Of a DNA stretch of 64,000 nucleotides, positions 43,305 to 54,748 are shown in pieces (within the stretch, counting starts at the first letter, position 1; every line of letters begins with the position of its first letter). The notes below the pieces were generated by a model that ran no database searches, was not told the DNA's origin, and worked only from the letters and a program-made list of their open reading frames with translations. Made by a program: the position numbers and the translations under genes. Source of the DNA: Sacculina carcini (Eukaryota > Arthropoda > Thecostraca > Sacculinidae); assembly GCA_916048095.2 (NCBI GenBank), contig OU696579.1:124001-188000 (forward strand), written 5' to 3'.

Positions 43305-43478
43305 ACAACAACAACAACAACAACAAAACATGTATTTCATATAGCGCTCTAATTATCATAGGCGCGAGGAACGGCTAGCTATAAAATGTATACAATGTGG
43401 AATAAACAAAACAGTATCGCATAAACAAAAATATAAGCAGCGATATACTATGAAGGAACAATTGAAAATAACTATGGA

Positions 43479-43515
<37 letters not shown>

Positions 43516-43537
43516 AACAGTTATTCACACAATATAA

Positions 43538-46441
43538 TTATTCATCAGAGGAGACACCGAGAAGATATGTACAAAGAGAAGTGGAAAAAGACCTGTAAGA
43601 GAGAGAAGATCGAATTTTAAGAGGAAGTTCATTGAACAAACGAGGTCCAGAGAAAAAAAGAGATTTCGAAGACCAGGTGGAGTCGTTGAGAGCACGGGGA
43701 CAGAAGAGACTACGTGATAGTGAGCGGCCCGGACGATCAGAAACAGTAAGAAGAGAACGGAGATAAGGAGGAGCAGAGTCGGAGTGGATGATCTTGAAGA
43801 TGATGCAGCAAACCTTGTGATGGATTCGCTGCCGTGCAGGAAGCCATCCAAGTTGGCGGATGAATTTCGAGGTGGGAGTTCTCGGTGGAAGAAGAAAAAC
43901 AAAACGGCAAGATTGGTTTATAATTTTCTGAAGCGAGCGTATATTTTTACAAGAAACATGAAGATAAAGAGAGTTACAATAGTCTAACCTGGAGAAAATT
44001 AAGGACTGTACAAGTGTGATTGCTGTAGCATTATCAAGGAATCGACGGATAGGATAAAGTTGGCGGAGAATAAGACGACAGGAGCGAGTCACACGTGATA
44101 TGTTAATTGAGAAAGAGAGATTGTGATCAAAATGTACACCAAGATCACGAACACACTGAGATAGGGGTAATGGAATTATTGGAGGAGATAATTTGGGAGG
44201 ATGAAACACAATATATTCAGACTTGGAATGGTTCAAAAGTAGATGGCGTGATGAAGCCCAGGATGTAATATTATTCAAAACCGCAGAAATGCAATTTTCT
44301 GAAAATTTTGAGATAGGAAAGTACAGCTGTAGATCATCCGCATAAATGTGGTAAGAAATAGGAAAACGATGAAGAATTGGACAGAGAGAAGACATATACA
44401 AATTGAACAATAACGGACCCAATATTGATCCCTGAGGTACGCCACTGGAAAGTTTTACAGAACTCGAAAAAGTGGAATTAGAGCGAACAGAATAAGAACG
44501 ATTAGAAAAGTATGAATTCATCAATGAAAGAGCCGTAGAAGAGAGTCCAATAGCGGCAAGGTCGTCACACAAAATTGCATGATCGACGAGGTCAAATGCC
44601 GAAGAGAGATCCAGCAGAACAAGCAGAACAGAGTCACCAGAGGCAAAATGATTGAAGATATCGTTCAATAGGTGCAAAAGGAGAGATTCAGTGGAACGAT
44701 TAGATACAAAGCCAGATTGAAAAGGATCGAGAACGGTGTTTATCAAAGGTGATAATTGCTCGTGTATGGCCGACTCCAGCAGCTTGGCAGTGAAGCTCAG
44801 AACGGAAACAGGGCGGTAATTACCAGGACAGTTAGGGTCAAGAGTGGGTTTTTTCAGTATTGGTGTGACAATAGCAGATTTATCAGCAAAAAATAAACCA
44901 TGTAGAAAAGAAGAATTGATGAGATGGGAAAAAATGGGGGAAAGGAGGTGAATGGAGTCAGACAAAGCAGAGAAATTAATCGGATCGAGAGGACAACGAG
45001 AAATTTTAAGTTTTTTAATAAGGCGAGAAGTATGAGCTACCGAGATATGGGAGAAACTAGACAGAGTGGAGGATGAAGTAGTATGAGTGAGAACTGTAGT
45101 GGTTGTAGGAAGTAGGGCACGAACCGAATTTAGTTTTTGAGGGAAGAATTGAGCAAAAGTAGAAGCCGAAATAGGATTGGGAGAGGAGCTGCCAACTGTC
45201 AACTGTTTTAGAGTGGACCACTGACGCGAAGGAGAACGAGCACAGTCTGCAAGGCGTGACTTATAAAAATCGGCTTTGGCCGTGGTCAGTGTAGTAAGAA
45301 ACGAATGTCGAGCAGAGCAAAAAGAGTCCCAGTCACTAGGCGACCGAGAGCGACGCCACCTACGCTCAAGACGGCGGGACGAAGTTCGCATATGAACTAA
45401 GTCCGACGAAAGCCACGGAGGGGGACGGGTTTGTGAGCGAACACGACGAGTGATCAGTGGAAATAATCGTTCATTGATCTCACTGAGAGAAGATGATAGA
45501 AAATCAAACACAAATTTGGGATGAAAGCCGTGGTAGGTAATGGGAGGCAAAAGAGAGGAGATCAAAGATTGAAAAATGATAGGACAGAACGACCTGTAAT
45601 CACGTGCGGAAAAGATGTAGGGCCCCTTGAATGGTGCGGGAGGAGAATAGTATAATTGGCAAGAAAGGAGAGAATGATCGGAAAAAGTATTGTCGGGAGG
45701 AAATGTGAGTGTATCATAAAGACGAAACTTGCTCAAAGTCGAAGGGTAAATGATAATGTCGAGAACATGGCCAGCTGTGTGAGTAGGAGTGGAATTTGAT
45801 ATCACCAAGTTATGAGAATTAAGAAGTGAAAGAAAATCGGACGCAAAAGGATTAGCCAGAGGATTGTCGAGCCAGAAATTAAAGTCGCCGACAATTATGA
45901 AGTTATCCAAAAAGAATTGAGAGAATTTAAATATAAGAGAATCAAACTCGTCAAGAAACATGGGTGTAGTACCAGGGTGATTTGGGCGATATACAATTAA
46001 AATTCCCAATTTTGGCATGGAGGGTAAAGATAAAGATAGCGGCAAGAATTCAAAAGCTTGTGAAGTAAATTGAGCGACAGCAAGTATAGAAAATGAAAGA
46101 GTTGACTTATATACTATACTTAAACCGCCACCGGAGGATTTGACAGACCCGGAAGAAGAGCGAGGAGCATGCAGTACGCTGTAAGTAGCAGGGAGATTAG
46201 CTGAGAAAGAACCGAAATCAGTATCCAGGAGCCATGTTTCGACCAGGCATAGAAAAGCAAAGTTATGAGACAGTAAAAGCTCGGAGATATATGGACACTT
46301 ATTCCTAGCCGAGCGTATGTTGAGTAAGCCCAGCAGGCTGTTGTGCGAATAATCAGGATCAGCAGACTTGCAGAACAGTTGCACAGGAAAACCATTTGTA
46401 GAAGATAACGGTGTGGTGGGAATATCAGCTGAAGACATTAG
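43538..46441 (-). CDS. LINE ORF2: endonuclease-reverse transcriptase
   Basis: The frame starts with CTA directly after the ORF1 UGA; the first ATG is the next codon (46438). The 966-codon open frame carries an APE-type endonuclease (GLLNIRSARN, CLVETWLLD, VGDFNFWLDNP, SDHSLL). The reverse transcriptase follows (LLDLSSAFDLVDHAIL, GVPQGSILGPLLFNLYM, IYADDLQLYF), with a C-terminal LNDSTWSSKSLFFSGPRLF segment. There is no RNase H domain, as in the L2/CR1 group. All catalytic motifs look intact. It is about 35% GC and strongly leucine/serine-rich. Confidence 0.9.
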   Translation of the reverse strand, partial: LMSSADIPTTPLSSTNGFPVQLFCKSADPDYSHNSLLGLLNIRSARNKCPYISELLLSHNFAFLCLVETWLLDTDFGSFSANLPATYSVLHAPRSSSGSVKSSGGGLSIVYKSTLSFSILAVAQFTSQAFEFLPLSLSLPSMPKLGILIVYRPNHPGTTPMFLDEFDSLIFKFSQFFLDNFIIVGDFNFWLDNPLANPFASDFLSLLNSHNLVISNSTPTHTAGHVLDIIIYPSTLSKFRLYDTLTFPPDNTFSDHSLLSCQLYYSPPAPFKGPYIFSARDYRSFCPIIFQSLISSLLPPITYHGFHPKFVFDFLSSSLSEINERLFPLITRRVRSQTRPPPWLSSDLVHMRTSSRRLERRWRRSRSPSDWDSFCSARHSFLTTLTTAKADFYKSRLADCARSPSRQWSTLKQLTVGSSSPNPISASTFAQFFPQKLNSVRALLPTTTTVLTHTTSSSTLSSFSHISVAHTSRLIKKLKISRCPLDPINFSALSDSIHLLSPIFSHLINSSFLHGLFFADKSAIVTPILKKPTLDPNCPGNYRPVSVLSFTAKLLESAIHEQLSPLINTVLDPFQSGFVSNRSTESLLLHLLNDIFNHFASGDSVLLVLLDLSSAFDLVDHAILCDDLAAIGLSSTALSLMNSYFSNRSYSVRSNSTFSSSVKLSSGVPQGSILGPLLFNLYMSSLCPILHRFPISYHIYADDLQLYFPISKFSENCISAVLNNITSWASSRHLLLNHSKSEYIVFHPPKLSPPIIPLPLSQCVRDLGVHFDHNLSFSINISRVTRSCRLILRQLYPIRRFLDNATAITLVQSLIFSRLDYCNSLYLHVSCKNIRSLQKIINQSCRFVFLLPPRTPTSKFIRQLGWLPARQRIHHKVCCIIFKIIHSDSAPPYLRSLLTVSDRPGRSLSRSLFCPRALNDSTWSSKSLFFSGPRLFNELPLKIRSSLSYRSFSTSLCTYLLGVSSDE

Positions 46442-47588
46442 TCATTGGTCACATGACGAACGCAGTGGAGATACGGAAACGGACTGATCAACGCTACATT
46501 GCTCAGCTAACAGCGTCCGACTACGCAGGGCGTTTCGGACAGCGACGAGTGAGGGACACTGGGGCGAGAACGATGAGTGATCATGCGGACGATTAGACTG
46601 ACGACAGTTGACACAGCACACTGAGGACTTATCTGGACAGTCCTTTGACAGATGAGACCCCGCGCAAATGCCACAACACGTATGATTTCTTGGGGAGCAG
46701 CGGGATGACGTGTGTCCAAGACGAGCACAGCGGTGACATCGTGCCACCCAGAAGCGGTCATACACAGGGCATGACGTCAGATCGACGAATAGACGATCAC
46801 CAGCCCTCTTGATGGACTGGCGGACCGCCGGCGACACTGATAGAACTCCGAGACCAGCACCAGCGCGCGTCTTTGAAATGAAGAGTACCTACCAAGTCCG
46901 CTGGTGAGGCATCAGCTAAAACCCAATTTTTCAGCCGAATAGATGTTGCAAGACTCTCCGGCGTCGAGTCAAGTGGGATATTGACCACTGTGACTTTCGG
47001 CTGCAGCATAGGAGCAGGGATAGCGACCTTCACGTCATGCATGTTATTGCGAACAGATGCAGCCACCCGGTCCACCTGTTCCTGAGAGCCACACTTGAGC
47101 ACGATTTTGTTGTCAGAAGATCTTGCTGCGAGAATAGGCTCAGTCTTCAGGACCGATCTGAGCTCGTCCTGGTGAATTTTGTGTTCGCCGGCACGCACGA
47201 CTACGGTATACGATCGTTTCACGGGTGCGTTGGTGCTGTGTGGGGCGAGACACTCTGTTACGCTGGCTGGTTTACCGCAGGTGTGTTGACCGATGGTCGT
47301 TTCCATGGTCGTCACTGACGTCTTTATGTCAGTGAGCTGACTGCATATTTCCGACAATTTCTCCGCTGGAGGAGACTGCTTAAATGAGCAAAATTCATTC
47401 TTGCAAGTTGGGCAGATCCAGAACAAGCGATGCTTTTTAATTGCATTCAATGCAGGGGTGGATAGAGCAGCGCAAGATGCGTGGAACGACTCACTACAAC
47501 CCTGGCACTGTATATACGCCCCTGATTTGAGCGAGTCACCACAGTGACAAACACGGTCGGCAGAGGGAGGAGCAGCAGCAGAGGGCAT
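46442..47588 (-). pseudogene. LINE ORF1: PHD finger and CCHC knuckles, one frameshift
   Basis: The ATG is at 47588. The N-terminus has a PHD-like finger (CHCGDSLKSGAYIQCQGC, then C-H and CPTCKNEFC), followed by an RNA-binding-like middle (KPASVT...KVTVVNIPLDST). The frame changes once near 46860 and continues to 46442 with zinc knuckles (CHRCARLGHTSSRC, CGICAGSHLSKDC, CCVNC). It ends CDQ-TGA, followed in frame by CTA and the ORF2 ATG. Without the single-base shift it would be about 380 residues. ORF1 proteins of this type bind LINE RNA. Confidence 0.8.
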
Positions 47589-47695
47589 GGCTAATCCCTT
47601 GTCCGAACAGGGGAAGCGCACACAAGATCAACACAAAGATAAGAGAACCCACGAAAACACAACCACACACGGCGACGACTGAAACACGCCAGTAC

Positions 47696-48350
47696 AAGAC
47701 AGTACCTCTGTCCTTGTATCATTACCGTCTGATAAGGCCACAAAGAAGGGTGAACCTTAATCTGGAGGTAGGCTTTTTCAGATCGACAACACTCACATTA
47801 TCTCCTTGTCTCCTCCATTTTCTCAAGATATCTCCACACACATTAACATCTCGAGTATGTGCCTCAATGAAAGCATTCAGTTCTCTAAAGTCCATGACCG
47901 GCTTCACTTTTTTACGCTGTGGCACGGCCATAAAATGTATCAAACATTTTGGAGGGCCAAGTCGTGCTTCGTCATACCTTATAAGCCAGCCTTCGTCAAT
48001 CCACGACTGCAGTTCGTCTTCGAAAGCTGCTCGGTGATGATCACCCACATGGTACAAACTAAAGCAATTGTTTAGGCAACCAGGCTCTACACCATTCACC
48101 CACTTCCACCTGGCTATCCACGACATATCATTTTCATCATAATCAACTACAAAATCTGACTCATCAACTTTCAAATTAGCACTGTTAGACGCCACAGCAG
48201 GACACGCAAAATCGGCGACAGATTTTCTCATCACCGATCCTGATTCACAATTTCCAATTCCAAACATAACTTCTCCCGGAGCCCAGATCGACACTCCGCC
48301 AAGCGCGACTATGGCGTCCATACCCATTATCATATCTCATATCATATCAT
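47696..48350 (-). mobile_element. Ty3/Gypsy-like pol, protease end and RT start (upstream half)
   Basis: The minus strand encodes MIMGMDAIVALGGVSIW (end of protease), then MSWIARWKWVNGVEP, DELQSWIDEGWLIRYDEARL, VKPVMDFRELNAFIEAHTRD and GDNVSVVDLKK (RT motifs 1-2). A 1-base frameshift lies just after VDLKK (about 47765). It is cut at 47701 by the nested LINE and resumes at 43304. Upstream gag is missing; other repeat sequence begins near 48400. Confidence 0.8.
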
Positions 48351-48399
48351 TCATTTCAATTTTAAACTTCATCAAGGTTATCCACTTTCAAATTTGATT

Positions 48400-49160
48400 A
48401 ACGATTCCCGGGTAACTTCTGAGGAAGGGAGATCGAATACTGTCGCGTGTCGTAAAAGGCGACTAAAGGCAGAAAGTGCCCTGTCAGGATATGTATTGTC
48501 TTGCTACTGAAACATGGAACCCAGTACTACCAGCCTCATGGTCGCTGTGTCGGCGACTAAACCGGCCTCCCCACTGTCTCTACCAGTGAGAAGGGTGGCT
48601 AGACTCCAAGCAGGACTGAAAACAAGACCTGTTAGAAGACGGACGCGCTGCTAGTCAACCAATGGTCACCTAGCAACTGAGGGTGGATATAGATCTCCAA
48701 CCATAGCTGTGCACCCAGTCTTCCTGTCAGATCTCCATTCTCCATGTTCTAGAAGAGCGTCACTTTGAGTTTCTGGTCTGCTGCCTCTGTTCCCTTTCTC
48801 TCTCCTATTCTAATAATCATATTCTTTCTAATCAGAATCATTCTCGTTTATATCTTTTCTAATAATAATCATACTCTTTCTTGTGCTCATAATTATTATC
48901 TTCATTATCATTATTCCACATTTGGGTTGAATCTGCTCATCCTGCACAGAAGTAACACAGCTGCTGCTTGTGATCAGTCACCTCACTCGTTACGCGCAGG
49001 TGGTGACAGTGGGAAGGTCCATCACATGCCAATTGAGAAGTAACGCCCGCTCAATCAAGGCAGCCCCTTGTCAATTGGTTCTTCTCCTGTCGGTCTCTTG
49101 TGGACAATTTGAGCCGTTCTCCTAGGTTTTATACCGAATAGAATGATGTTAAACAATCAG
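48400..49160 (+). repeat. Dispersed repeat, LINE 3'-UTR-like
   Basis: Contains CGTGTCGTAAAAGGCGACTA, a motif I associate with untranslated ends of invertebrate LINEs. Further on come a GC-richer stretch and an end GAATAGAATGATGTTAAACA. There is no coding sequence. The class is uncertain. Confidence 0.4.
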
Positions 49161-49272
49161 CTGAGAAAGAACAATGAACACATATGGACTGTGTCACCGG
49201 ATTCTATGTCGGCACTGAGATGGACTGATTAGGATAATTTGATTAATATATTCATTTATATGTTCATTCATA

Positions 49273-49555
49273 TTGTCTATTGTATTGATGTACATTCATT
49301 GGCGTATTGTCTTTCATGTGATTTTTAGGGTTGTTCATATTGTGTCGTTATTTTGTTTGTATCTCTCGTGTATTGTCCAATTGGGTATGTATGCATCGTA
49401 CAATATGTTTTCGTGTGTGTATTTTGCTTGTGCTTCATTCACACATTATCAATCTGTCCTTTCTGCTATTGACGTTTGGTGATGTTGAGATTAATCCTTC
49501 CCCTCATCGACAACGAAAACGATTTCGTGCAGTGCAGAATTTAATTTTCAACTGA
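49273..49555 (+). mobile_element. 5' LINE fragment encoding a degenerate 2A peptide
   Basis: A hydrophobic plus-strand frame ends LSFLLLTFGDVEINPSPHRQ and stops at 49555. D-V-E-x-N-P-G-P preceded by a leucine-rich stretch is the 2A ribosome-skipping motif, known at the N-terminus of ORF1 in some CR1/L2-type LINEs of sea urchins and other invertebrates. Here Gly is replaced by Ser (TCC), which should abolish skipping. ORF1 is lost after about 15 further codons. The upstream ATG candidate is at 49331. Confidence 0.6.
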
Positions 49556-49559
49556 GAAT

Positions 49560-50149
49560 ATAATAGAATAATGCGACAGCACTTGTCATATTGCTGTAGA
49601 CAGCTTCCCATATGCCTGAAAAGTCAGATATGTGACGACGACAGGTCATATAATATACAATAATTCACTATCACAGTTAGAGTGAAAGATTTTCACGCAA
49701 ATAAAATCTGTCACAATTTTAAGGAATGATTACTGGGTTAATGAAATTTTATAAATGATTCATTTTAATTTTATTCGCATTTAAATATCCTCGGTTTTCA
49801 TTTAGTATTTCATGACGTAGAAAAAATATATAAATGACACAGCGTACCAGATTCGGGTCATTTTTCGCGGGAAAAACTGAGAAATGTTTATGGCTCGGGT
49901 GGCGGGTGTTGCCGAAGTCAAAAATAAAAATAATTGTGACATTAAGTCTATTCAGACCTTGAAGAATGGAAAAAAACATCGATCGGCATCAATTTGAGAA
50001 AAATAACCTCTTTGAATAAATCTAGTGTGCAGCCAATATTCTCATAGCTAGATGCAGTGGGGTTGTCGGTTTGATCGCTAAAAACTCGCCCATGCGCACT
50101 GGTGGAAACTTCTTACCAAATATCCGTGATGACGATAAAACATAATTGC
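49560..50149. other. AT-rich spacer
   Basis: No gene, repeat array or transposon end is recognised between the 2A-bearing fragment and the second LINE. Confidence 0.4.
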
Positions 50150-50370
50150 GCAATACACAAGACAAACAAACAACAAACAAACAACAATGTATTTGTATAG
50201 CGCTCACACAGAAACAAGCGCGAAAGAGACAACAACAACAACAACAACAGTACACGACATCAAGATGTGAGAAAAGAAGTAGAAAATTCACAGAAAGGAA
50301 ATTTTTTTCAATAATAATGGAGATAAATAAAATGAAAATAAGTAAAAACATAAGTAATTGTAAATTAGAG

Positions 50371-53283
50371 TCATAGGGAAGCGTAAGGTGTAAGAGTGCG
50401 AGAAGTGGGATCAAAAGATTTAGCAAAAAGATATTTACGAAGTGAGGAGGAAAACCTACTAAAGGATGAAGAGGAAGTGATTGAGGAGGGAAGATCATTG
50501 TAGACCCGAGGCGCATAGAAAGAAAAGGATTTTGCGGACCAAGGTGACTCGTTGATAGCGCGAGGACAGGATAAAGGACGATGAACACGAGAATTAAAGT
50601 CATTAGAAGAAACTAGAAGATCAGAAATATAGGACGGGGAAGAGCTATTGTGCAGAATTTTATATATGAGACAACACAGCCGAAAATGAATCCTAGGAAT
50701 GATGGGAAGCCAGTGGAATTGGAACAAGAATTGAGAGGTATGGCGGCAAGGTGTAGGATGGAGCACAAAACGACAGGATTGATTAATAATTTTTTGAAGG
50801 ATTTTCAGGGATTTGTTGGTAAGAATGTAGTGGAGTGAGCTGCAATAATCAAGACGAGAGAGAACAAGAGACTGTATTAATTTAATAGAAGAAGGCTGGT
50901 CTAAACAGGATCGAATAGGGTATAGACTGCGTAAAATCAAACGACAGGTGCGCGAAATAGAGACAACATTGTTTGAAAAGGACAAGTTGGAATCGAAGAT
51001 AGCACCCAAGTTTCGAACAGAGGAAGATACAGCGATTGGGAGTAATGGAGGAGAAATGCGCGGAGGGTGAAGGATAAGAAATTCAGACTTAGAAGTGTTG
51101 AGAATGAGGCGACGAGAGGTGGTCCAGGACGTAATATCAGAGAGAATATCATTGAGAAGAGTGGCATGAGAGAAAGGACAAGGAATTAGGAGTTGTATAT
51201 CATCGGCATAAATATGGAAAGGAATGTTGTATTTACAAAGGACAGGACAGAGAGAAGACATGTAAAGATTGAAAAGAGTAGGACCCAAGATAGAACCTTG
51301 AGGGACACCAGAAATAAGAGAAGCAGATTTTGAAACAGTTGAATTGAAGTTTACTGAAAAAGTGCGACCAGAGAGATAGGATTTGAGGAGAGACAATGCT
51401 GACGAGGATAGACCCAGAGAAGAAAGATCATTGATGAGAATGGCATGATTGACAAGATCGAAGGCTAGAGACATATCGAGAAGAACAAGGAGAACTGATT
51501 GACGATAGGAAAATTTAGATAAGATTTCATGAGTAACTGAAATAAGGACGGATTCCGTAGAGTGACAGGAGCGAAACCCAGATTGGAAAGGATGAAGGAC
51601 CTGGGAAATAAGGGGAGACAACTGGGAAAAAATAGCTGATTCAAGGAGTTTTGAAGGAAAGCTGAGAAGAGATATAGGACGGTAATTAGCGCATTCAGAC
51701 GGATTTAATGTAGGTTTTTTAAGGATAGGATGGACGATGGCATGTTTATCAGATAGGAATTGGCCATGAAGAAATGATGAATTAATGAGATGTAATAGAT
51801 AAGGAACAAGAGAAAATATTGAAGGGGAGATAGCTCTAAAATTAATAGGATCAGCCGGAGAGGAGGAAATTTTGAGGGAAGATATCATGGTAAGAATATC
51901 TGAAAGATGTATTTGCGAGAATGAAGTGAATTGTAGAGACACACGAGTATGTGTAACAGGGATATTGGAAGAGGGGAGTTTAGACTGAACAGTTAGGACT
52001 TTATTAGTGAAATGAGAAGATAATTGAGAGGCAGTTAGATTAGATAAAGAGGAGTTAGATCGAGAACCAGTGAGAGAGTTTAGAGTTGTCCAAAGAGACT
52101 TAGGGGTTCGGGAGAGCGAAGAGAGACGGGAGGAGAAGTAATTTTGTTTAGCTGCAGACAAGGCCGAGATATAAGAAGAGCGGGAAACAGAGAAGGAAGA
52201 CCAATCAGATGGATGAGATGTACGTTTCCAGATTCGTAGAAGTGAACGTTGATGTCTTTTCAATAGACGAAGTTGAGAGTTAAACCAAGGAGGAGAAGAA
52301 TTAGTTGTATTGCGCCGGATAAGTAAAGGAAACAAAGAGTCACTGATTTTAGATAAAGCAGAAGATAGGTGGGGATAGATGTCCGAAGGATTCAGGAAAT
52401 AAAGCGTTTGCAGAGGTAATAAGGAATCAAGTAATAGGTAAAACTGCATCGGATCGAATTCTTTAAAGTTACGATAGGCAATCAAAGCAGGAGTATGAGG
52501 AGGCAGCGAGGCGAGACAAGGAAGAGTGGTAAGAAGAAGACTATGGTCAGACAAAGAAAGATCGGAAGGAAAGACAGTTACATTGGAGGGGGAATTGTCG
52601 GTAGAAAGGACAGGCGATGGGAAAAGGATAAGATCTAAGGAATGACCGGATATATGAGTAGGCGAGGAAACAGGAGAGAACAAACCATGAGAGTCTAAGA
52701 TAGTTAGAAATTGAGAAGCAAGGACATTAGAGCTAGGCGAATCCACCCAAAAGTTGAAATCGCCTAGGATAATAAAGCGACTAGAGAAAGAGGATATGAT
52801 GCAGTCGAGGAGAGTAGGAAATTCAGTGAAAAAAGAAGAGCAAGTGCCAGGATGATTATGGCGATAAATGATGGTGATACAGAACTTCGGAGAAGAAGGC
52901 GGTGAAAGTTGTAGAGCAAGGAATTCAAAGGATGAGAAAGAACAAAGAGACGGAAAGGATAAGACTGAAACATGTAGAGATTTAGAGAAAATGCAGCCCA
53001 CTCCACCACCGGAAGACTTGGTATTTGACCTAGATTTGTGTAGGAAGGAGTAACCTGTGGGAATGTTAGAGGAGAAAGAAGGAATGTCGGAGTCAAAGAG
53101 CCAGGTTTCAACAAGACACAAAATTGCGAGAGAGTGGAGGGATAGGATATGGCAGAGATGAGTAGTTTTATTGCGACAGGAACGAATGTTAATAAATCCA
53201 ATAGGAATATTAGACCAAAGAGAGGAACTAGACAAGGAAGAGCGATTAGAGGAATGCTTAGGAGAGGATGCTTGGGAGGCTAG
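50371..53283 (-). CDS. LINE ORF2: endonuclease-reverse transcriptase without its own ATG
   Basis: The frame is open from the codon after the ORF1 UGA (53283) to the TGA at 50371, about 970 codons. No ATG precedes the endonuclease, whose first motif GFINIRSCRN comes within about 30 codons. Endonuclease motifs are CLVETWLFD, SGGGVGCIF, LGDFNFWVDSP and SDHSLL. RT motifs are LLDMSLAFDLVNHAIL, GVPQGSILGPTLFNLYM and IYADDIQLL. The C-terminus has INESPWSAKSFSFYAPRVYN, also seen in the truncated copy at 58340-59020. The absence of an ATG and the shared frame suggest that it is made as a fusion with ORF1. Confidence 0.92.
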   Translation of the reverse strand, partial: LASQASSPKHSSNRSSLSSSSLWSNIPIGFINIRSCRNKTTHLCHILSLHSLAILCLVETWLFDSDIPSFSSNIPTGYSFLHKSRSNTKSSGGGVGCIFSKSLHVSVLSFPSLCSFSSFEFLALQLSPPSSPKFCITIIYRHNHPGTCSSFFTEFPTLLDCIISSFSSRFIILGDFNFWVDSPSSNVLASQFLTILDSHGLFSPVSSPTHISGHSLDLILFPSPVLSTDNSPSNVTVFPSDLSLSDHSLLLTTLPCLASLPPHTPALIAYRNFKEFDPMQFYLLLDSLLPLQTLYFLNPSDIYPHLSSALSKISDSLFPLLIRRNTTNSSPPWFNSQLRLLKRHQRSLLRIWKRTSHPSDWSSFSVSRSSYISALSAAKQNYFSSRLSSLSRTPKSLWTTLNSLTGSRSNSSLSNLTASQLSSHFTNKVLTVQSKLPSSNIPVTHTRVSLQFTSFSQIHLSDILTMISSLKISSSPADPINFRAISPSIFSLVPYLLHLINSSFLHGQFLSDKHAIVHPILKKPTLNPSECANYRPISLLSFPSKLLESAIFSQLSPLISQVLHPFQSGFRSCHSTESVLISVTHEILSKFSYRQSVLLVLLDMSLAFDLVNHAILINDLSSLGLSSSALSLLKSYLSGRTFSVNFNSTVSKSASLISGVPQGSILGPTLFNLYMSSLCPVLCKYNIPFHIYADDIQLLIPCPFSHATLLNDILSDITSWTTSRRLILNTSKSEFLILHPPRISPPLLPIAVSSSVRNLGAIFDSNLSFSNNVVSISRTCRLILRSLYPIRSCLDQPSSIKLIQSLVLSRLDYCSSLHYILTNKSLKILQKIINQSCRFVLHPTPCRHTSQFLFQFHWLPIIPRIHFRLCCLIYKILHNSSSPSYISDLLVSSNDFNSRVHRPLSCPRAINESPWSAKSFSFYAPRVYNDLPSSITSSSSFSRFSSSLRKYLFAKSFDPTSRTLTPYASL

Positions 53284-54327
53284 TCAGGTGGAAGAAGGAG
53301 AAACGGACGGACCGGAGGACATAGTGCGGAGCCGGATAGAATTTCTTACAGCCAAGAAAGAAGGACAGGAAGAGCTGAAAGATGAATGGTTATGTGGACG
53401 CAAGGACGAAGCACAATTGTTGCACCTTTCAGGTGCTGAGCGGTCACAGTCACCAGACCTATGAGGGCCTGCACAATGACCACACATCACCGGACGTGTG
53501 CAGTGTGTTTCTTTGTGGCCGAGACCAGCACATCGACCACAGTGAGCTACCCAGTAACGATCGTAAACTGGGCATGAGCGCAGTTCGATGAAGAGACGGT
53601 CACCGGCATTTTTGATGACTGAACGCACAGCTGGTGAAACAGACAAAACAGCATGTGATATATTATTACGAGGAGTGGTGAAAAATAAAAGTTTGATCTC
53701 CGAGTCAGGCACAGATGACAGACAGTAATTTTTTTGCTTTAGTGAAGAAACGAAAGAATCAGAAGAAAAGTTGGGAGGAATGTTAGCCATAGTAATCTTC
53801 GGGCGAAGCTGCGTGGCAGTCGGCAGTGAGACTTCAGCGTCCGGCATGGCCATGCGAACACGATCGGCAGCCTTTTTGGCTGTAGCGGCGGAATCGCAGC
53901 GCAGCACCAGTCCGCCATTGACAGCAGGGCGCGAGGCAGACACCGGAATATCGCGCAGAGCCGGAGCAACAGACGATGTCGAAATGGGCGAGCTAGTCTT
54001 CGACTTTAAAACCACAGCATGTGACTGTTTCGGTTGAGGAGACGGTCGTGGAGTGGTAGAGGAATCCTGTGGTGGCTGACGTAGTTCATTTAGAGTGCCC
54101 TCAATGGTCTGCAGGCGCTGGCCAAACGAAGAGAAATCTCCAGCCAACTGGATCGCGAACTTAGCTCGACCAAGACAGGGAGAACACACCCAATTGACCA
54201 TTTTCAGTAGGTCCGTCCTGATACCAGTTAGAGAGGCACATTTGATGTGGGCCCGCGAATCACATAAGTTGCATCCAACCCATTTGGAAGTCTCACCGGG
54301 AGATTTACAAATACAACATCTTATCAT
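53284..54327 (-). CDS. LINE ORF1: PHD-like finger and zinc knuckles
   Basis: 347 residues from the ATG at 54327 (a TTG precedes it in frame). The N-terminal zinc finger starts CCICKSPGETSKWVGC and ends WVCSPC with H/C ligands between. A low-complexity Ser/Pro linker follows, then a middle domain (RPKITMANIPPNF). CCHC knuckles come last (CGRCAGLGHKETHC, CGHCAGPHRSGDC, CNNC...C). It ends SST-TGA-CTA-GCC. Predicted role: RNA binding in the LINE ribonucleoprotein. The frame continues straight into ORF2 after the UGA. Confidence 0.9.
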   Translation of the reverse strand: MIRCCICKSPGETSKWVGCNLCDSRAHIKCASLTGIRTDLLKMVNWVCSPCLGRAKFAIQLAGDFSSFGQRLQTIEGTLNELRQPPQDSSTTPRPSPQPKQSHAVVLKSKTSSPISTSSVAPALRDIPVSASRPAVNGGLVLRCDSAATAKKAADRVRMAMPDAEVSLPTATQLRPKITMANIPPNFSSDSFVSSLKQKNYCLSSVPDSEIKLLFFTTPRNNISHAVLSVSPAVRSVIKNAGDRLFIELRSCPVYDRYWVAHCGRCAGLGHKETHCTRPVMCGHCAGPHRSGDCDRSAPERCNNCASSLRPHNHSSFSSSCPSFLAVRNSIRLRTMSSGPSVSPSST

Positions 54328-54330
54328 CAA

Positions 54331-54748
54331 ATCAACAAAGACACCAGTTCATTGATTCATACCAACACTGAGCAGGAAAAATCGCATACATCTCGATTGC
54401 CCTGGGTGATTGGACACGAAACGAAAATCAACGGTTCAAAAACACCAAGGACGAGTACCTCTGAAATGACAAACACGTGCGATTGCTTGAAAATATTCCC
54501 AATAGATATGTTTAGATAAGAATGGATGCACTCACAAGGGTAAAAAATAACACTTATTACCTTAAAAACCAAAGTATTTTTACTCATATAAAAAAATTGA
54601 AATGACATTAGCACCAAGATGCATAAACGTGACAAATTAATAGGCATAAATAACCCAAGAACATGAGACAATCTGACAACGCCTTTTCCTAACGTCACTA
54701 CGAACGCGCGTTATCTGCATTCGGGAAAATATATCAAGAAAAACAGAC
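54331..54748. other. Spacer between the LINE and the secreted-protein gene
   Basis: AT-rich. A 113-codon minus-strand frame (54698-54357) is hydrophobic and unfamiliar. It abuts the 5' end of LINE-2 and may be its 5' UTR or chance. Confidence 0.35.

Follow-up and report, generated by a model that had tools for sequence, protein, structure and literature searches.

Structure of the F1 element and its ORF1-ORF2 junction

The window analysed here is a stretch of 64,000 nucleotides from the genome of Sacculina carcini (assembly GCA_916048095.2, contig OU696579.1, positions 124,001 to 188,000). Its minus strand carries copies of two long interspersed nuclear elements (LINEs), F1 and F2, in each of which a first and a second open reading frame (ORF1 and ORF2) lie on either side of a UGA stop codon (Table 1). 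Our main subject is this junction in F1, where translation probably reaches ORF2 by readthrough of the UGA.

ORF2 of F1 scores above the Pfam cut-off for both PF03372 and PF00078, the combination of endonuclease (EN) and reverse transcriptase (RT) by which an apurinic/apyrimidinic endonuclease (APE)-type non-long-terminal-repeat (non-LTR) retrotransposon is recognized, and the best PDB profile matches are LINE-1 ORF2 structures. The dispersal is also of the LINE type: copies are found on many contigs, several are 5'-truncated and their TTG-repeat ends vary, although LTRs were not searched for separately. The boundaries of the window copy were set from other copies, 22 of which start aligning at 54319, while full-length alignments stop at 50165-50183. 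The ORF1 frame of this copy is free of stops from 54348 to 53287, and its own ORF1 start is missing. The in-frame ATG at 54327 comes by chance from flanking DNA (54319-54327) and gives this ORF1 the look of a complete frame; intact F1 ORF1 proteins start with MCQCCICK, unlike the window copy.

The wider junction reads ...TCCACC TGA CTA GCCTCC... on the minus strand, with the core ACC-TGA-CTA-GCC at 53289-53278, as described in the initial annotation. The approximate figures given there also hold: 970 codons stay open after the TGA in the frame of ORF1, and the first EN motif, NIRS, lies 31 codons past the stop with no methionine in between. The earliest in-frame methionine of ORF2 is codon 279, downstream of the endonuclease. 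An AUG start in F1 ORF2 would therefore lose the whole endonuclease, since there is no AUG for 278 codons.

Table 1. Coordinates of the F1 and F2 features, numbered from the first base of the window.
Feature	Position	Strand	Remarks
LINE copy F1	50165..54319	-	5'-truncated by a few codons; 3' end is a TTG/TTTG repeat
F1 ORF1, including TGA stop	53284..54327	-	PHD finger by Pfam; CCHC-type zinc knuckles by eye
F1 UGA stop between ORF1 and ORF2, proposed readthrough codon	53284..53286	-	
F1 CUA codon directly 3' of UGA	53281..53283	-	next base is G
F1 ORF2	50371..53283	-	970 codons plus stop; same frame as ORF1
F1 endonuclease domain	52543..53190	-	ORF2 residues 32-247; Pfam PF03372, E 2.4e-9
F1 reverse transcriptase domain	51001..51717	-	ORF2 residues 523-761; Pfam PF00078, E 7e-31
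LINE copy F2, ORF1 (PHD) and ORF2	43538..47588	-	F1 ORF2 matched 46333-43544 with 48.8% identity
F2 UGA stop between the ORFs	46442..46444	-	followed by CUA (46441-46439) and AUG (46438-46436)
F2 ORF2	43538..46441	-	967 codons plus stop; EN and RT

Other copies of F1 in the genome

A probe for the F1 junction gave 42 matches in the 264 Mb assembly (43 contigs), and 38 junctions were read in 37 loci, one of which (L038) holds two. The stop is TGA in all 38. It is followed by CTA in 37, the exception being TGA-CTC in L045. Six loci (L012, L014, L015, L017, L018 and L019) hold a complete ORF1 of 347 residues and a complete ORF2 of 970 residues around the TGA. The collection of genomic copies proposed in the initial annotation thus bears out its expectation, in that the shared frame and the TGA-CTA are preserved in complete copies and ORF2 has no ATG start in any of them. 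A comparison of F1 subgroups, in which many codons were skipped, gave synonymous to nonsynonymous codon counts of 8:2 in EN, 11:2 in RT, 12:12 in ORF1, 9:14 in residues 261-500, 3:5 at the C-terminus and 1:3 in the linker, the last being uninformative.

An in-frame UGA would also be present if UGA stood for a standard amino acid or for selenocysteine in this host. In the six complete copies, however, the junction TGA is the sole TGA within the ORF1-ORF2 frame, and the 13-14 tryptophans are all encoded by TGG. Rfam, which includes a SECIS family, gave no match of any kind in window positions 43400-54600 at gathering thresholds, and the position of the UGA in an unconserved linker is not what such decoding would lead one to expect. 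We regard this as the least credible of the explanations considered here.

One further F1 copy, L029 (C36:1395089-1395226), has an ORF1 of 388 instead of 347 residues and the same ORF2. A short repeat lies near the end of its ORF1, and part of the junction region matches twice.

The junction in related host families

Searching the genome with the F2 endonuclease gave 140 matches, and short windows upstream of 20 of these, and 40 more, were read. In the first 20, the junction was visible in 17. The tail of ORF1 and the EN match share a frame in 16 of these, the remaining one, L093, having a linker indel that shifts the frame; L092, L099 and L104 differ upstream, and the junction was not seen in them. 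The junctions read CAA TGA CTA ATG in F2, whose ORF2 is in frame with ORF1, CAA TGA CTA TCT in F3, TTT TGA CTA ACT in F4, GCG TGA CTT CCT in F5, TCC TGA CAA CCC in F6 and CAA TGA CTA TCA in F7. In the 40 further windows, the in-frame stop nearest upstream of the EN match was TGA in every case, and the codon after it did not vary within a family: CTA in F2 (3/3), F3 (3/3), F4 (15/15) and F7 (1/1), CTT in F5 (9/9) and CAA in F6 (9/9). ORF2 identity across F1-F7 is 44-64%. From F1 to F7 in order, the linker between the stop and the EN motif measures 31, 40, 47, 39, 44, 63 and 24 codons; as these lengths all differ and the frame is kept, linker length has changed several times with the frame maintained.

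The open frame of one F5 copy, L095 (G000:C26:578659-579393), was given as 2158 residues despite its intact junction TGA.

As a control set, a distant LINE protein (P0014) was used to find 46 more places in the genome; 20 upstream windows from eight families of our choosing were read. Three of these have an in-frame TGA-C: C1 (GAT TGA CTA TGT, 2/2), F9 (GCT TGA CTA CCA, 2/2) and F8 (TCC TGA CGT TCA, 4/4). Three are built differently, one with a CCCH-finger ORF1 in another frame that ends in TAA, one with a zinc-knuckle ORF1 in another frame that ends in TGA-GTG, and one that is in frame around TAG-AAC and has a methionine at codon 15. No ORF1 could be recognised in the stretch read of families A (L150-153) and B (L154, L155), the last in-frame stop of B being TGA-CTG. 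The in-frame TGA-C design is thus not general to the LINEs of this genome, since some of the control families differ.

In all, ten host families (F1-F9 and C1) have an in-frame TGA-C, and the next codon is CTA in seven of them. Their RT sequences form a single clade together with the protein P0001 (support 100/99), within which C1, a CTA family, is outermost. The tree groups these families without naming the clade, and LINE-2, the name given to F1 in the initial annotation, is provisional.

LINEs on Poribacteria-binned and other metagenomic contigs

To these host families we added contigs from metagenome-assembled genomes (MAGs), in which 35 eukaryote-like loci were read. An in-frame ORF of at least 90 codons precedes the stop in 12 of them (L054, L055, L059, L060, L064, L068, L069, L072, L077, L078, L079 and L081); L084 was without a match, and L067, L075 and L082 were without an upstream stop. 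Five loci on contigs binned as Poribacteria share a long ORF1 and an in-frame TGA, which is followed by CTA in L059, L064, L068 and L072 and by CTC in L060. Their EN motif lies 6-11 codons past the stop, with no AUG before it in any of the five. Pfam placed a PHD finger in ORF1 of three of them, above the cut-off in L064 and below it in L072 and L060; L059 and L068 gave no match.

The five form an RT clade of their own (support 99/96), far from the host clade. Poribacteria are sponge symbionts, and these LINEs are therefore probably sponge LINEs. The TGA-C design may have arisen separately in the two RT clades, or once with later losses.

Some of the remaining MAG loci show related arrangements. 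In-frame ORF1 and ORF2 surround a TAG in L069 (1644-1652, TAG CAA CTA), L054 (416, TAG GAT), L055 (292, TAG GGG) and L079 (1459, TAG GAA), and the L069 sequence fits the tobamovirus-type UAG CAR YYA motif. L077 (353) and L078 (1230) hold a LINE-like element with an in-frame ORF followed by TGA CAA ACC. It lies outside both clades as a further TGA-C candidate, and its first methionine is 37 codons past the stop, about at the apparent start of EN. In L059 (2-1474), ORF1 has a 2A-like GDVEVNPGP near its N-terminus in addition to the UGA-CUA, so that this element may carry two recoding devices. No relatives were confirmed in viral contigs, where one pattern match failed in tblastn and other pattern matches were without confirmation; L049, a short match there, was not used.

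Sequence constraint around the stop codon

The ten host families and the five Poribacteria-binned elements, which were grouped for their in-frame TGA-C, give a set of 15 in which +4 is C throughout and the codon after the stop is CTA in 11 (CTT in F5, CAA in F6, CGT in F8 and CTC in L060). CTA accounts for 2.0% of ORF2 codons (208/10395). Over F1-F7 and the Poribacteria-binned five, the mean at positions +4 to +6 is 1.59 bits, and the flanks reach 0.47 (upstream) and 0.36 (downstream). None of these 12 elements departs from the shared stop or from C at +4, and conservation is limited to the stop and the next codon. The stop of ORF2 itself is TGA in only two of the ten elements whose ORF2 end was read, and a general preference for TGA at stops therefore does not explain the junction.

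A shared ancestor could in principle account for this pattern by coincidence, if the descendants of one TGA-CTA element simply retained the hexamer and expressed ORF2 in some other way. The youth of the F1 copies and the grouping of the ten host families in one clade are in line with such inheritance. Nevertheless, TGA and C have stayed invariant in F1-F7, whose ORF2 sequences are only 44-64% identical, between flanks that are near-random, and the same hexamer occurs in a distant clade. We consider inherited coincidence very improbable.

No stable fold was predicted 3' of the stop in 14 segments of 120 nucleotides (11 TGA-C elements plus L054, L055 and L069; z from -0.95 to +1.87), in calculations that did not model pseudoknots or long-range pairs. 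This result bears on recoding at the RNA level, in which A-to-I editing, for instance, would turn the UGA into UGG ahead of translation, or splicing would remove the stop. An in-frame fusion that needs no ORF2 AUG would result here too, but such recoding accounts for neither the CTA nor the C at +4. Editing in particular is favoured by a stable fold, and the edited base would tend to be passed on to retrotransposed copies, whereas all 38 F1 junctions have TGA. Recoding of the RNA is thus an explanation to which we attach hardly any weight.

Proposed expression of ORF2 by stop codon readthrough

We propose that F1 expresses ORF2 by programmed readthrough of UGA-CUA, and on the comparative sequence evidence we put the probability of this at about 0.86. 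Most ribosomes would terminate at the UGA and yield the ORF1 protein (ORF1p) with its PHD finger and zinc knuckles. A minority would place an amino acid at the UGA of UGA-CUA and read on, producing a rare ORF1-EN-RT fusion, much as some viruses produce small amounts of polymerase joined to a plentiful first product; this fusion would be the active form of the enzyme. The UGA-CUA context would act by itself, because no fold is predicted just downstream. Three observations are consistent with this mechanism: the F1 stop lies in a leaky context (UGA CUA G), ORF2 of F1 is in frame and has no start of its own, and stop and context are kept across diverged relatives (CTA in 11 of 15).

PMC4359377 derives UGA CUA as the human-cell consensus for efficient readthrough, with G apparently the most favourable base at +7; this agrees with the leakiness that the initial annotation had ascribed to UGA-CUA(G); the same source likens this context to that of alphaviruses and also names UGA CAR YYA as a motif. 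For insects and crustaceans, the authors of PMC5100048 conjecture that readthrough is abundant. Among named matches, the DNAJ protein of the host is closest to Pollicipes (73%), with Amphibalanus at 67%, and the host is thus probably a thecostracan crustacean. The view of ORF2 as a readthrough extension of ORF1, also put forward in the initial annotation, is supported by the comparative evidence, as the design is found in nine more host families and in a distant clade.

Several observations weigh against readthrough, either in particular families or in the strength of the argument. The most direct are start codons in the linkers. F2 has an AUG at codon 2, three bases past the stop, in all six copies read (window, L085, L086, L147, L148 and L149), the sequence at the stop and the AUG being TGACTAATG. 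An AUG is also present at codon 11 in F6, at codon 17 in C1 and, among the F3 copies, at codon 20 in L087, L088 and L089, with none in L103. Because of these linker AUGs, an AUG start or reinitiation is possible in F2, F3, F6 and C1.

The same AUGs, in F2, F6, C1 and three of four F3 copies, speak for a different mechanism, termination at the UGA and reinitiation of translation from an AUG, or a near-cognate codon, close by in ORF2, as in SART1. Against it, no AUG precedes the EN motif in F1, F4, F5, F7, F8 or any of the Poribacteria-binned five, nor does one occur within the 30 codons read in F9. Most of the linkers scanned for the near-cognates CTG, GTG and ACG are also without these before the EN motif (F1, F4, F5, L059, L060, L068 and L072), and F7 and L064 have one each. 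Furthermore, reinitiation accounts for neither the shared frame nor the kept CTA. Selection for readthrough fits better, since reinitiation needs no shared frame and the linkers are unlike in sequence and length. Reinitiation is therefore an unlikely route to ORF2.

The other reservations about readthrough concern context and counting. CTA is replaced by CTT in F5, by CAA in F6 and by CGT in F8, and contexts of this kind also occur away from the junction, as ORF2 itself ends in TGA CTA in L068 and in TGA CTC TAA in F1. The folding predictions do not support stimulation by a nearby hairpin, as in readthrough of the murine leukaemia virus (MuLV) type. F1 copies are mostly 91-100% identical across the junction (86% in L045) and some have flanks in common (L033/L034 and L041/L042); because the copies are young and some share flanks, their number says little about selection. 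Since elements were grouped for an in-frame TGA-C, our own choice accounts for part of the invariance of TGA and C; the control families and the remaining MAG loci serve as a counterweight to this choice. A binomial probability of 1e-13 for CTA in 9 of 12 elements is too strong and overstates the case, because families of one clade are not independent. Finally, the conjecture in PMC5100048 is limited to Pancrustacea and would not cover a sponge host.

With these points taken into account, we find it reasonably probable, as far as sequences can tell, that UGA-CUA readthrough is the standing mode of EN-RT expression of a whole animal LINE clade, one that at least two distant RT clades have evolved or retained, with other elements using UAG (L069, and perhaps L054, L055 and L079). 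On that view, LINEs, retroviruses and RNA viruses would all make their first product and their polymerase fusion in a fixed ratio.

Comparison with known systems

The excerpts consulted describe several LINE strategies, namely reinitiation, unconventional initiation, HeT-A frameshifting and 2A (PMC5972666, PMC5009743, PMC4981915). SART1 and mammalian L1 likewise have two ORFs, of which ORF2 encodes EN and RT (PMC5972666, PMC5009743). According to these passages, their ORF2 has its own AUG or an initiation of unknown type, whereas F1 ORF2 lies in frame behind UGA-CUA and has no AUG. The LINE-encoded 2A (StopGo) is also a recoding device within a LINE product (PMC4981915, PMC5972666, as excerpted); it skips a peptide bond and involves no stop codon, whereas F1 keeps one.

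Closer parallels are found among viruses. The UAG of gammaretrovirus Gag-Pol and the UGA of alphaviruses are in-frame stops ahead of a polymerase part, as in F1, going by the sections seen of PMC5009743 and PMC4359377, and F1 has an alphavirus-like UGA C context (PMC4359377, same sections). MuLV combines a UAG with a pseudoknot, whereas F1 is a LINE with no fold predicted near its stop. Among cellular genes, LDHB, AQP4, SYTL2 and several more have the same UGA-CUA hexamer in the text drawn on from PMC4359377, and +7 is G in F1 and L064. The LDHBx extension described there is 18 nucleotides long, compared with about 970 codons of enzyme in F1.

Our search of titles and abstracts found no readthrough between ORF1 and ORF2 of a LINE; its coverage of the LINE literature was partial, which makes this weak evidence of novelty. 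To our knowledge, the way in which RT is produced in LINEs without an ORF2 start codon is mostly unresolved, and a leaky, conserved stop is a directly testable answer for the expression of ORF2. If the proposal is correct, one hexamer sets the ratio of ORF1p to EN-RT, the active enzyme is fused to the nucleic-acid-binding part of ORF1, and readthrough joins reinitiation and 2A as a recoding device of non-LTR retrotransposons. There is also a practical consequence for annotation, as the endonuclease may be missed by gene finders that require an AUG; P0001, which is 61% identical, is predicted from a methionine inside EN.

Additional features of the F2 region

In the window copy of F2, ORF1 has one frame change near 46890, and there is none in the stretch read of L085 and L086. 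Adjoining F2, positions 47722-48336 of the window hold an open frame of 204 residues that has no Pfam match and by eye resembles part of an RT-bearing element.

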